64,000 bases of DNA. Origin: an uncultured Duodenibacillus sp. GTDB taxonomy: Bacteria > Pseudomonadota > Gammaproteobacteria > Burkholderiales > Burkholderiaceae_F. This document shows positions 3,275 to 50,998 of the stretch, in pieces; positions within the stretch are counted from its first letter, which is position 1, and every line of letters begins with the position of its first letter. Under the pieces are notes generated by a model, which did no database searches, was not told the DNA's origin, and saw only the letters and a program-made list of their open reading frames with translations. Made by a program: the position numbers and the translations under genes. The stretch is taken from positions 55,196 to 119,195 of the forward strand of contig CALXKM010000010.1 of NCBI GenBank assembly GCA_944388865.1. Reading direction: 5' to 3'.

Positions 3275-4726
3275 ATGCAGTGGGAAGTTGTGATTGGTCT
3301 GGAGACGCATGTTCAGCTGTCGACGGACTCTAAGATCTTTTCGGGGGCATCCACGGCCTTTGGGGCAGAGCCCAATACACAGGCCTGCTATATCGATCTG
3401 GCGTTGCCCGGAGCTTTGCCGGTGCTCAATCGCGGTGCTGTTGAGCGTGCTATTCGCTTCGGCCTTGCTATTGGGGCCGAAGTTGCGGAGAAGTCAGTTT
3501 TTGACCGCAAAAACTATTTCTATCCCGACTTGCCTAAGGGGTATCAGATCAGCCAATTTGATCTGCCTGTGGTCAAAGGAGGACAGGTGAACTTTAGGGT
3601 TGAGCCCAAGGACGGCGATCCCTATATGAAAACCATCAACCTCACGCGCGCGCACCTTGAAGAAGATGCCGGCAAGAGCAATCACGGCGTTCAGCCGCGC
3701 AAATCTGGCATTGATTTGAATCGTGCGGGGACGCCTTTGCTTGAGATTGTGACCGAGCCCGAACTCAGAAGTTCGGCTGAGGCCGTCGGCTATGCCAAGG
3801 CTTTGCATGCGCTGGTGGTTTGGCTTGGCATCTCTCACGGCAACATGCAGGAAGGAAATTTCCGGTGCGATGCCAATGTGTCGGTACGTCCTATGGGCGA
3901 AACCAAGTTCGGCACGCGTTGCGAAATTAAGAATCTCAACTCGTTCAAGTTCCTGCAGGAGGCCATTGACTATGAAGTGCGCCGCCAGATCGAAGTGATT
4001 GAGGCCGGCGGCAAGATTGTGCAGGCAACGAGACTTTATGATCCCGATAATGGCGAAACGCGAGAAATGCGCACCAAGGAAGATTCCATGGATTATCGCT
4101 ATTTCCCGGACCCCGACTTGCTGCCGTGCGTGATTTCGCCGCAATGGAAGGCGCAGGTGGCCGCTGATATGCCCGAGTTGCCAGGACAGATGCGCGAGCG
4201 CTTCATGCGCGAGTACGGCTTGTCGGAGTATGACGCCGATGTACTCACATCAAGCCGTGATGTGGCCGATTATTTTTGCGCCGTGTGCAAGAGCGCGCCC
4301 GACAAGAAGATCGCAGCCAACTGGGTGATGGGCGAAGTGGCCGCCAGCGTGAATGCCGCCGAAGGCATGACTTATGCTGCGGCTCCGGTGACAGCGGCCG
4401 CGCTTGCCGATATTTTGAAGAGAATTGCCGACGGCACGATCAATGCCAAGGGAGCCAAGCGCATCTTCTCTCTTATTTGGGAGGGGGCTGTCGAGGGTGT
4501 TGATGCTTTGATCGAGCGGGAAGGCTTGAAGCAGATTTCGGATGCCTCTGCCCTTGAAGGAATTATCGATGATGTGCTCAAGAATAATCCCAAGATGATC
4601 GAAGAGTTCAAGGCAGGCAAGCAGAAGGCTTTCAATGCGCTTGTCGGTCAGGCCATGAAGGCAACTCGAGGCAAGGCCAATCCCAAGCAGGTCAACGAAA
4701 TTCTCTCGCGCAAGCTGCAGGGATAG
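3275..4726 (+). CDS. gatB: Asp/Glu-tRNA(Asn/Gln) amidotransferase subunit B
   Basis: A 483-residue protein starting [15 protein letters not shown], the conserved GatB opening. The catalytic cradle domain (to about residue 295) contains [16 protein letters not shown] and DANVSVRP, and the C-terminal half is the helical GatB/YqeY tRNA-binding domain. It activates Glu- or Asp-tRNA with ATP and accepts ammonia channelled from GatA. The start at 3275 was preferred over the longer frame from 3101, which overlaps the end of gatA. Last gene of the operon; a hairpin with a T run follows at 4750-4802. Confidence 0.96.
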
Positions 4727-44809: not shown

Positions 44810-46168
44810 TTAGATTTCCACAGGCAGCGGGAAGAGCGGGTTGAGCCAGCCGGTGCCGTCGGTGCGGACAGGTTGACCGCCGCCGTTGACGCAGCCGCCC
44901 GGGCAGTTCATGACTTCAATGAAGTGCCAGCGGTTGGGATCGCCGCGAAGCGTGTCAAGCACGTACTTGAGCGACTGGCCAGCGCCGTTGACCACGCAAA
45001 CGCGCAGCTCAAAAGTCTTGCCATTGAGTTCGGGCAGAGCCAGCGGGATCGTGGCTTCGACGTAGCTGTGATCCTTGCCGCGAACCGGCAGGATATCGGC
45101 CTGCTCGAGTTCTTTGCCCATCAATACTCGATAGGCAGTGCGCAGCGCAGCTTCCATCACGCCGCCGGAGGCGCCGAAGATGGTGCCGGCACCGGTGTAA
45201 ACATCAAGATTTTCACGCTTGCGTTCCTTGGGAAGTTCAAGCGGGTTGATGCCCTTGCGGCGCAGCAGTTCAGCAACGTCGCGTGCCGTCAAAACAGCGT
45301 CAATGTCGGGGAAGCGAGGAGCGTCGGCAGGAATGTTGCCTTGTTTGACATGGTAGCGCCAGGCGGTGTCCATCTCCGGACGGGAGGCTTCAAAGATCTT
45401 GGCCGTGCAGGGAGTCACAGCGACAACCTTGACCTTGCGCGGATCGCAGTTGTAGAGGAACTTCGGTGCCCAAACCTTGGCGAGCACGCCGCCCATCTGA
45501 ATCGGGGACTTGGCCGTCGACAGATGCGGGATAAAGTCAGCGTGGAAGGTTTCGCAGTTGCGTACCCATGCCGGGCAGCAGGAAGTAAAGTGCGGCAGCG
45601 GGTGGTGCGATGCGCGCTCGAATTCCGGCCCGCGCTTGCCGAGAACCCAGTACTGAACCTTGCGAACGAATTCCGTACCTTCTTCCATAATGGTCTGGTC
45701 GGCGGTACTGTTGACGTCGTAGGTCTTGAATCCGGCCTTCTCGAAGGCGTTCATCATCTGATCAGTGGTAATGTCGCCGGGTTTGCCTCCGAATTCTTCG
45801 GCAATCGATACGCGAACGGCAGGCGAGGGATGCGCCACAACGATGTTGCTCTTGTCTGCGAGCATCTTTTCGACTTCGTCGACAAAGGACATCTGCTCAA
45901 TGGCGTTGAACGGGCACGAAATCAAGCACTGACCGCAGGTGAGGCAGCGCTGATCATTGATCTTGTGCTTGGCGCCGAGCTTGCCTTCGATGGCGCCAAC
46001 CGGACAGACCTTGCGGCATGTGTCGCAGGCCTCGCACAGGTCTTCATTGATTTTGATAATGCCGCGCAGTTCACCCTTGCGGATGACGCCGACAAAATCC
46101 GGACCATTTTCACCGCGGGCATCGGCCGGCGGATTGAAGGTCTTGATTTTGAGAATCTTTCCAGTCAT
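44810..46168 (-). CDS. hydA: [FeFe] hydrogenase large (catalytic) subunit
   Basis: A 452-residue enzyme of the Desulfovibrio dimeric type. Two [4Fe-4S] ferredoxin motifs are CEACDTCRKVCP (residues 45-56) and CLTCGQCLISCP (75-86). H-cluster motifs: L1 TSCCPAW (195-201), L2 VTPCTAK (251-257) and L3 EVMNCPGGCVNGGGQP (418-433). All H-cluster Cys and the proton-path Cys are present, but the L2 Met before PC is Thr252. No extra N-terminal cluster domains. Start at 46168 follows AGGAG; the longer frame from 46234 is not family-like. Confidence 0.95.
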   Translation of the reverse strand: MTGKILKIKTFNPPADARGENGPDFVGVIRKGELRGIIKINEDLCEACDTCRKVCPVGAIEGKLGAKHKINDQRCLTCGQCLISCPFNAIEQMSFVDEVEKMLADKSNIVVAHPSPAVRVSIAEEFGGKPGDITTDQMMNAFEKAGFKTYDVNSTADQTIMEEGTEFVRKVQYWVLGKRGPEFERASHHPLPHFTSCCPAWVRNCETFHADFIPHLSTAKSPIQMGGVLAKVWAPKFLYNCDPRKVKVVAVTPCTAKIFEASRPEMDTAWRYHVKQGNIPADAPRFPDIDAVLTARDVAELLRRKGINPLELPKERKRENLDVYTGAGTIFGASGGVMEAALRTAYRVLMGKELEQADILPVRGKDHSYVEATIPLALPELNGKTFELRVCVVNGAGQSLKYVLDTLRGDPNRWHFIEVMNCPGGCVNGGGQPVRTDGTGWLNPLFPLPVEI

Positions 46169-46611
46169 CTTGACGGATCTCCTGTTTGCTGAGGAATGCG
46201 GCCGACTTCTTCTCTCCGGAAGACATCGGCTCAAACGCGTGATCTTGTGACGGCTCTGCCGTTCTTCTCAAGTGGAACTCTGAAGGCCCCTTGTTTTTTG
46301 GGAATGAAGAGAAAAGCAGAGAAATTCCATGACCGGGAAGAATGAGACGACCGGCCAGAATTTTCCATAGACACACGAAAACGCTGATTTTACGTATTTT
46401 TTCAAATTTTGCTTATTTCTTAAGACGTTTTCCAGAGTTTTGTTCGTAATCCCTTGGCCGCTCAGTCGTAGTGCCGATCAGTGTTGCAAGGAGCAAAAAA
46501 GTAAAACTCTTGAAAAATCAATTGTCTAGAAGTTCGTTTAATCGTTATGGATGTCTGATGGATTTTGAAAACAGTTGACTAAACTCGAACTGGGAAAAAT
46601 CGGAACTGTAC

Positions 46612-49968: not shown

Positions 49969-50096
49969 AAATCAGGAAGTGTGCAAATTCAGGCAGATTG
50001 TAACGCGCGAGCTGATGTCAGGCCGCAGTATTCTGCTAAAGAGAAATGTAGCGTGAAAATTCCGTATTAAGCCTTAGAGGTCATGCAAAAACTGTC

Positions 50097-50105
50097 TGTT
50101 ATACT
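50097..50105 (+). promoter_or_regulatory. Extended -10 promoter of the structured RNA
   Basis: TGT followed by TATACT (50100-50105), an extended -10 element. No consensus -35 is seen at the matching distance. Transcription would begin near 50112, about 16 bases before the first helix of the RNA. Confidence 0.5.
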
Positions 50106-50111
50106 CAACTC

Positions 50112-50533
50112 AGGGAGCTGAAGTAGTCTTGCCTGCATCTGAGGTTTCGTCTGCCCATTGCGTTGAGTGCAGGCAGGCGGACGTGTGGGTCGAAAGGAGT
50201 CATGGTCAATCCTCCCAGCTTAGGGGTGGAGACTCGCGAAAGATTTGACTGACTTGTCTCAATGGCCTTCTTTGGGGGAGGCAAACTATGTTGGTGGGGA
50301 ATGCACAGGCATCGCGAAATGTAGATCCAAGTTCCGCGCTCTGCGGCCGGTGGCTGAAAGCTCTGAGAGGCGGGAGCGGTGGTGCCGGTAGGAAACCCCT
50401 TCTGACATTGGCGAAGGATCGTTACCGGTCGAAAGACAAAGGGCGGAGCCCAAGAGTTTCCGTCGCCGGATTGTTTTAAGGAGGAGGCGCTGTTTCCCCA
50501 GCATGGATACAGGGATTCCTGCGCTGATTTTCT
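50112..50533 (+). ncRNA. Large pseudoknotted structured RNA of unassigned family (HEARO/omega-RNA-like candidate)
   Basis: About 420 bases with dense base-pairing. An H-type pseudoknot opens it: 50130-50137 pairs with 50168-50175 (8 bp), and 50148-50155 pairs with 50176-50183 (8 bp, one wobble), the two 3' arms being contiguous. Further helices: 50197-50201/50231-50235 stacked on 50210-50216/50224-50230; 50265-50270/50277-50282; 50301-50304/50309-50312; 50334-50337/50343-50346; 50385-50388/50466-50469 continuing into 50391-50396/50456-50461, which enclose 50398-50402/50413-50417, a GAAA-capped hairpin (50428-50437) and GGGC/GCCC (50441-50451). It ends with AAGGAGGAGG and small hairpins just before the Rrf2 ATG. 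No RNase P, tmRNA, SRP or cobalamin motifs are seen. Resemblance to HEARO/IscB-associated RNA is from memory, not a search. Confidence 0.6.
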
Positions 50534-50998
50534 ATGAAAATTTCAACAAAGACCCGTTATGCTCTCAGGCTGATGCTTGATCTGGAACAGAATCAGGGAG
50601 ATTTTTCGTGGGTGTCTCTCAAAGATATTGCCGAACGCCAGGGAGTATCCAAAAAGTATCTGGAACAAATTGTTTCGTCTTTGCATCAGTATCGCCTGCT
50701 TTTGACGTCTAGGGGCAACAAGGGCGGCTACAGGTTGGCAAGAGACCCGCGAGATATTACGCTTGGCGAGATTATGCGTGCAACAGAATCTACGCCGACA
50801 ATCATCCCCTGTTTGGATAGGCCTCTTACTTGTCCAAGATCAGGAGAGTGTCTTACGCGCAATGTTTGGATGGGGCTCAAGGAAGTGCTTGAGCAGTATG
50901 TTGACTCCATCACGTTGGCGGCCATCGCTGAAAATGATTTCGACTCGGATACTGCTGGGTGCATGGTCAGCGTCCGAGAGCCGTTGCGATTGCTGTAG
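50534..50998 (+). CDS. Rrf2 family transcriptional regulator with three-Cys site
   Basis: A 154-residue regulator. The winged helix-turn-helix covers residues 1-80 (MKISTKTRYALRLMLDL, DIAERQGVSKKYLEQIV, SRGNKGGYRLAR). Three cysteines at 93, 100 and 106 (PCLDRPLTCPRSGEC) occupy the position of the IscR/NsrR cluster ligands, so Fe-S or redox sensing is likely. Spacing is C-x6-C-x5-C, one residue wider than IscR. There is no Shine-Dalgarno directly before the ATG. It converges on cysK and may control cysteine or Fe-S genes. Confidence 0.9.
   Translation: MKISTKTRYALRLMLDLEQNQGDFSWVSLKDIAERQGVSKKYLEQIVSSLHQYRLLLTSRGNKGGYRLARDPRDITLGEIMRATESTPTIIPCLDRPLTCPRSGECLTRNVWMGLKEVLEQYVDSITLAAIAENDFDSDTAGCMVSVREPLRLL

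Follow-up and report, generated by a model that had tools for sequence, protein, structure and literature searches.

The 64,000-nucleotide stretch of DNA analysed here (the window) comes from a genome of 2.49 Mb (G000), whose family also includes Sutterella wadsworthensis (G019) and Parasutterella excrementihominis (G014). It raises the question of what fills a 565-base gap (49969-50533) with an AMP-binding gene (acyl-CoA synthetase-like, - strand) on one side and rrf2 (+ strand) on the other. The latter encodes an Rrf2-family regulator (50534-50998 in the ORF list; PF02082, E 3.3e-36). A first-pass annotation had assigned 50112-50533 to a large pseudoknotted RNA of no recognised family. The feature is composite and comprises an rrf2 leader (50112-50204), a HEARO RNA (50205-50425), a junction region (50426-50473), and a transposon right end (50474-50533), all on the + strand. 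As to a coding reading of 50112-50533, the ORFs overlapping it are three in number and encode 59, 72, and 63 aa; this reading was set aside.

No Rfam family was matched at gathering thresholds anywhere in the 64-kb window, and RNase P, tmRNA, SRP, 6S, and cobalamin gave no Rfam match, as the annotation had said. At E <=10, the region returned only HEARO (RF02033) and a chance match to SNORD74. The HEARO match (cmscan, 58.2 bits, E 3.4e-11) extends over 50205-50425 and covers all model positions from 1 to 211. The all-Rfam covariance-model check advised in the annotation gave nothing at gathering scores and HEARO over the whole model by E-value; by this E-value, the claim that the RNA has no recognised family fails. 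The idea of a large structured RNA stands insofar as the stretch derives from one, whereas it does have a family and its 420 bases are not a single RNA. HEARO is described as the guide RNA of IscB-type nucleases (PMC9755519). The gathering score of the family is 83 bits; since neither the window copy nor the syntenic copy of the related genome G004 (76.1 bits) reaches it, the window copy is treated as a degenerate HEARO derivative and not as an Rfam member. It is a HEARO descendant and shares with the HEARO/IscB omegaRNA the full-length model match, the helix order, and a 5' guide position in flanking DNA. It differs from this RNA in its score below the gathering value, in the partly broken P1-P2, in having no IscB downstream, and in lying in the 5' leader of an unrelated gene.

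Of the 65 HEARO consensus pairs, 49 are formed in the window copy, 53 in G004, and 57-59 in eight other copies. Ten pairs are broken in the window only, six in G004 only, and six in both; one-sided differences number eight, and no two-sided compensation was detected between the two copies over the 65 consensus pairs. The pairs of P1, P2, and P2' are all formed in G004 (17/17) and 12 of 17 in the window. The stretch 50285-50437 is 85% identical to the copies of P. excrementihominis, which score 125-143 bits when full. The GAAA-loop hairpin noticed in the annotation was confirmed at 50428-50437 (+ strand), and a similar hairpin follows HEARO in some intact elements (e.g., L021 and L035).

The 3' part of the feature, 50474-50533 (+ strand), is 75-80% identical to the transposon right ends at G000:C25, G004:C17, G019:C4, and G019:C7, with an nhmmer E-value of 4.8e-17 for a profile that includes the window row. 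A full S. wadsworthensis element (L096) has a 428-aa IscB after its HEARO, and the right end that comes next is homologous to 50478-50539. Both ends of an IscB element are identified in this way, and according to the ORF list no IscB ORF is present between 50425 and rrf2. About 50 bases are retained between the element ends, and comparison with L096 assigns 50426-50473 (+ strand) to a remnant of the sequence between HEARO and IscB together with the deletion junction. Because IscB is gone, 50205-50533 is a non-autonomous element. Its left end GTCAA (50205) comes directly after TCGAAAGGAGTCATG, and its right end terminates in GATTTTCT; next comes the beginning of rrf2, ATGAAAATTTC, and the ATGA of this gene (50534) doubles as the insertion/target motif. 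The right end is thus homologous to those of full elements, and the target motif lies on the right-end side (right flank ATGAAA), as in IscB elements. The IscB transposons of Sutterella and relatives, e.g., those of Sutterella wadsworthensis 2_1_59BFAA (L096/L110), resemble the window element in the kind of left and right end and in the ATGA target, whereas the distance from the HEARO start to the ATG is 1585 bp in the full S. wadsworthensis element and 329 bp in the window, with IscB deleted. Other short derivatives were found in G004 (374 and 335 bp), in G019 (380 bp), and in G007 (596 and 779 bp). Non-autonomous derivatives of the IS200/IS605 type are named MITE/PATE-like; the window element resembles them in keeping both ends and losing the coding part and differs in that one end is a guide RNA and the other a probable ribosome-binding site. 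The reading we hold with high confidence is that an IscB/HEARO (OMEGA) transposon with an internal deletion occupies 50205-50533, between the Shine-Dalgarno sequence of rrf2 and its ATGA, and that the right end of the transposon most likely replaces the ribosome-binding site. A caveat to this reading is that the window HEARO has lost ten pairs that G004 keeps.

The sequence upstream of the element belongs to rrf2. The extended -10 reported in the annotation (TGTTATACT, 50097-50105, + strand) is indeed located just upstream of the feature, its letters are identical in G004 and in the relative G008, and the block 50092-50118 is 93% identical in G008. Since a consensus promoter scan of the rrf2 leader region found none, activity of this rrf2 promoter is presumed only. 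It is followed, 5' of the element left end, by the older rrf2 leader (50112-50204, + strand), which is about 68-70% identical to that of G004. Both 8-bp helices described as an interleaved pseudoknot are present (50130-50137/50168-50175 and 50148-50155/50176-50183); the second contains one G-U pair, and the first can be extended to 11 bp. As for the conservation of these helices in homologues, G004 is the only homologue with the leader, and 9 of 11 and 7 of 8 pairs are kept there, with one two-sided change in each helix. A competing 10-bp helix (50146-50155/50172-50181) keeps eight of its ten pairs in G004. Pairs kept in two leader sequences are suggestive of structure and are not proof. The interleaved helices (50130-50183) are part of the older rrf2 leader and lie outside the element; they possibly represent a structured leader that predates the insertion.

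The dense pairing that had been emphasised is no greater than chance. Compared with dinucleotide shuffles, 50095-50560 has a folding z-score of +0.72 on the + strand, where 77 of 100 shuffles fold at least as well, and of -0.62 on the - strand. The values for its parts are -0.18 (50112-50204), +0.95 (50205-50351), and +0.94 (50352-50425). Because the region folds no better than shuffles, pairing density by itself is no evidence of structure, and whole-region folding was dropped as such evidence. A new pseudoknotted RNA unrelated to known families, as initially proposed, agrees with the leader helices being mostly kept in G004; with a HEARO match of E 3.4e-11, a transposon right end, and a fold no better than that of shuffles, this explanation is almost certainly wrong. 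For annotators, HEARO remnants below the Rfam cut-off resemble orphan structured leaders.

The original Shine-Dalgarno sequence of rrf2, AAAGGAG (50193-50199, + strand), is now 329 bp further from the ATG. When the flanks are joined into an empty site, it would lie 5 bases 5' of the ATG and has an anti-SD energy of -8.2 kcal/mol, which is a good Shine-Dalgarno sequence; the element has thus come between the ribosome-binding site and the start codon. In the aligned bases of G004 the motif is lost (AAAGAG). The right end contains another motif, AAGGAGG (50478-50484, + strand), which is identical in G004 and is proposed to be the working one. It is followed by a hairpin (50486-50525, + strand) with the outer stem GGCGC (50486-50490) and GCGCT (50521-50525), then by 8 bases and the ATG. 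In G004 the outer stem is kept through two one-sided changes (GGCGT/GCGCC). Given this order, the right end probably re-supplies a ribosome-binding site, and its sequence anatomy corresponds to that of a bridged site (Shine-Dalgarno, hairpin, short linker, AUG). In phage T4 examples, a hairpin between the Shine-Dalgarno sequence and AUG restores the spacing. The right-end module has the same order as these hairpin-bridged mRNAs, whereas it is a transposon end recurring at unrelated genes. No paper on hairpin-restored spacing between Shine-Dalgarno and AUG was found in a search of open-licence papers.

The same arrangement is widespread among the right ends. In many, AAAGGAG(G) is followed after a few bases by an outer and then an inner stem, with about 8 bases left before the ATG; the outer stems vary by lineage (GGCGC/GCGCC, CCGCGA/TCGCGG, GCGGC/GCCGC, and GGCAA/TTGCC). 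With boundaries picked by eye and near variants included, a motif of the AAGGAG type was present in 37 of 42 right ends at a median of 57 bases 5' of the ATG, and the remaining 5 of 42 were without it. The anti-SD energy was <= -7 in 32 of 42 right ends vs 6 of 42 control windows further up in IscB. In full elements, AAAGGAG is mostly located within the last IscB codons; relative to the IscB frame, the 37 motifs fall in phase 1 (18), phase 2 (12), phase 0 (3), or after the stop codon (4). Its nucleotides are therefore kept without the reading frame, which points to a nucleic-acid function. The inner right-end hairpin has decayed in the window copy. Right-end folding is mildly better than that of shuffles in the window (z -1.02), and the value for G004 is -3.44. 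In minimum free energy folds, some of the AAGGAGG bases are paired, and their partners in G004 adjoin the ATG. The start-like ATGs of the window have a mean anti-SD energy of -1.8 kcal/mol, and many genes of the genus may have weak Shine-Dalgarno sites anyway. Judged from the sequence, the right end is most likely the ribosome-binding site from which rrf2 would be translated and is referred to here as a candidate one.

The insertion is shared by G004 (L099), in which 50000-50694 is 77% identical, so the copies of both genomes are of common descent; none of the remaining 65 of the 67 family genomes searched, some of which are incomplete, yielded it. The dS values between G000 and G004 are 0.88-1.07 in rrf2 and four neighbouring genes. 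With gaps left out, identity between the two genomes is 88% in the promoter, 55% in HEARO P1-P2, 82% in the HEARO core (50258-50425), 65% in the stretch after HEARO, and 73% in the right end; rrf2 and purN have 65% identity at their fourfold sites (117/181). The HEARO core (138/168) is above both the fourfold sites (p 2.7e-4) and the guide plus P1-P2 (p 3.3e-5), and the latter (38/69, 55%) are no more conserved than fourfold sites (p 0.19). TTTTAAGGAGG and the last 8 right-end bases are unchanged in both species (19 columns, p 4.7e-4, with blocks picked post hoc). In G008, the rrf2 orthologue has the promoter block, and its leader gave no HEARO or right-end match. The ATG of this leader (L101, - strand) is preceded by GGAGG, a strong GC hairpin, and a short linker, which may be an eroded old right end or convergence.

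These data bear on two further explanations. The element could be plain decaying transposon debris, the insertion being tolerated, translation of rrf2 hardly needing a Shine-Dalgarno sequence in this genus, and the omegaRNA and right end idle. This would fit the HEARO pairs broken in one species only without two-sided compensation and the guide plus P1-P2, which are no more identical than fourfold sites; it is opposed by the identity of the HEARO core, by the unchanged right-end blocks, and by purN (see below), where little survives except the right end. We consider debris possible but rather unlikely. Alternatively, the HEARO core may have been recruited as a cis-acting leader, acting on the rrf2 mRNA as riboregulator or stabiliser. 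The core has 82% identity between two species, and a full IscB was not found in one of them; a terminator scan of 49970-50560 detected no terminator-like site. Only two genomes can be compared, and within HEARO they exhibit no two-sided compensation, so such recruitment appears doubtful. The constrained core may act in cis.

The retained omegaRNA also raises the question of a guide function in trans. IscB is the presumed ancestor of Cas9. The guide position of the window omegaRNA, placed from the HEARO left end, is 50189-50204 (+ strand), i.e., the bases immediately 5' of HEARO, for which a length of 16 bases is assumed. A kept guide RNA, transcribed from the rrf2 promoter, might still program an IscB made elsewhere in the cell. 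One intact-looking IscB is encoded in G000 (432 aa; G000:C23:15951-16779, L095 and L223), where it represents the only RRXRR match; the HEARO core is constrained, and P1, P2, and P2' are fully paired in G004. This IscB is only 33-35% identical to two IscBs of the element family and has a divergent HEARO of its own (71.5 bits), and the search found no common-type right end at this locus, whereas in G004 no more than a short IscB fragment was found. This low identity and the fragment in G004 make a guide role unlikely. Moreover, the window copy retains 12 of the 17 P1, P2, and P2' pairs, the guide position diverges freely (9/16 identical to G004, 56%), and no target was found in G000 beyond chance. 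A kept trans-acting guide is therefore regarded as very improbable. Of the candidates considered, an active guide for the resident IscB was rejected as unsupported, as was a guide target elsewhere in G000: a search with AAAGGAGTCATGATGA at <=2 mismatches gave three matches, including the locus itself, vs one in the reversed control.

The insertion directly before an ATG is a recurrent feature of these elements. HEARO and IscB are already known; HEARO reportedly integrates at ATGA/GTGA, an ATGA-like motif is said to be used by one IscB, and stand-alone omegaRNAs are said to exist, so that ATGA-type targets and stand-alone omegaRNAs are known as well. In 37 relatives searched, HEARO was matched in eight genomes and above the gathering score in six. 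Run on the collected loci, the right-end profile gave 35 distinct matches, and all 35 flanks begin with ATGA or ATGG and then diverge. As the ATG was part of the profile, this adjacency is to some extent built in, and the divergence after ATG[AG] is not. Two further weak matches (E 0.14) are not right ends. Altogether, 36 of 42 HEARO matches were analysed, after exclusion of four located at contig ends and two that were weak or degenerate, and 32 elements were scored (three had no right-end match and one a masked left flank), 19 of them from a single genome (G007). An ATG was defined as start-like when the joined flanks had a frame of >=100 codons and an in-frame stop within 50 codons upstream. 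By this definition, 24 of 32 elements were placed before a start-like ATG vs 59 of 1041 control ATG[AG] sites in the window. The other eight include as failures L193, cut by the locus end, and L208, which has a masked stretch. The left flank had an energy of <= -5 kcal/mol with the anti-SD in 13 of 32 elements, compared with 13% of the 1041 controls and 19% of the 59 start-like ones. Among the best 80 of 137 IscB loci of a GTDB scan, 45 were scored, with right-end boundaries set by eye and the control rate measured in the window only; 22 were at start-like ATGs (>=80 codons) and 23 were not. The rest of the 80 were repeats of the first set or were without a left end or a clear right end. In the G007 genome (2.4 Mb, same genus), 21 HEARO matches were found, and many elements precede start-like ATGs.

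The downstream proteins were compared with NCBIfam. In eight of ten picked gene-like proteins, namely SerC, a histidinol-phosphatase-like protein, LolC/E, NtrC, a dehydrogenase, PurN, AtpA, and NadD, the best match begins within 5 residues of the ATG; four of these matches are below the curated cut-off, two of the four proteins being cut by the locus end. The match begins at residue 37 in DnaB and at residue 21 in LpxB. As the matches begin near the ATG, it is very probably the true start codon. In an uncultured Erysipelotrichaceae (L179, 3766-3780), an IscB element is situated directly before the atpA start, and AAAGGAGG lies 4 bases 5' of the ATG.

Right ends also occur as remnants before host genes. 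Ten matches to a strict right-end pattern were distributed over 4 of 10 genus genomes, and the reversed control had none. The pattern contains AGGAGG, three bases of the 5' arm, and TTTCTATG, with the 3' arm of the stem left free; since these bases are part of the pattern, it cannot show that they are kept. Eight of the ten matches precede a gene-like frame: rrf2 (twice), purN, dnaB, lpxB, and three others identified by eye as a metal-binding-type, a methyltransferase-like, and a dehydrogenase-like gene. Full HEARO is still present at three of the eight, and none was detected at E <0.01 at the other five, for dnaB within the only about 300 bases covered upstream. The purN right end is identical at 43 of 60 positions between G000 and G004, vs 103 matching among the 290 columns before the last 100, and in G004 it has a changed tip (TTTTTATG). 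By eye, no clear right end was found in the purN orthologues of seven other genus genomes, and those without a right end have no clear Shine-Dalgarno sequence. A right-end-like stretch, recognised by eye, is located 5' of the ATG of dnaB in G008. The module kept at the purN start codon provides the strongest sign that host genes use it.

Based on these observations, the following course of events is proposed. A transposon would have landed directly before the rrf2 ATGA and so between start codon and Shine-Dalgarno sequence, its left end being the omegaRNA with the guide position within the flanking rrf2 leader, and IscB would subsequently have been lost by internal deletion. Transcription of rrf2 from the old promoter presumably runs through the omegaRNA remnant, which would no longer guide IscB. 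The ribosome would bind 50478-50484, replacing the displaced Shine-Dalgarno sequence, and the hairpin 50486-50525 would close a gap of roughly 50 bases and bring AAGGAGG to about 9 bases from the AUG. More generally, IscB/HEARO transposons appear somewhat more probably than otherwise to be start-codon specialists, with an ATGA/ATGG target that itself represents a start codon plus the following base, a guide taken from the Shine-Dalgarno region of the host, and a right end that is a portable ribosome-binding site restoring translation of the gene hit and kept by hosts. Among the open-licence papers searched, none was found to deal with start-codon insertion of IscB or with a ribosome-binding site carried by the element. 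If this is true, insertion between Shine-Dalgarno and AUG would be nearly harmless even in core genes (atpA, serC, nadD, ntrC, and lolC/E), and right-end remnants would be kept for good as the ribosome-binding sites of rrf2, purN, dnaB, and lpxB, offering a route for transposon ends to become permanent translation signals of core genes. With the right end as a replacement ribosome-binding site, such near-neutral insertion could explain the many copies in small genomes.

Two further loci contain HEARO RNAs lined up around a single IscB match, as stand-alone guide RNAs arranged like an array. In Butyrivibrio sp. RUI559 (L141), HEARO was found at 1349-1560, 1769-1977, 2252-2463, and 4198-4432, and in L121 at 1719-1931 and 2263-2474. 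Elsewhere in the window, an ORF at 44810-46234 (- strand) resembles an iron-only hydrogenase and contains ferredoxin-type cysteine motifs recognised by eye.
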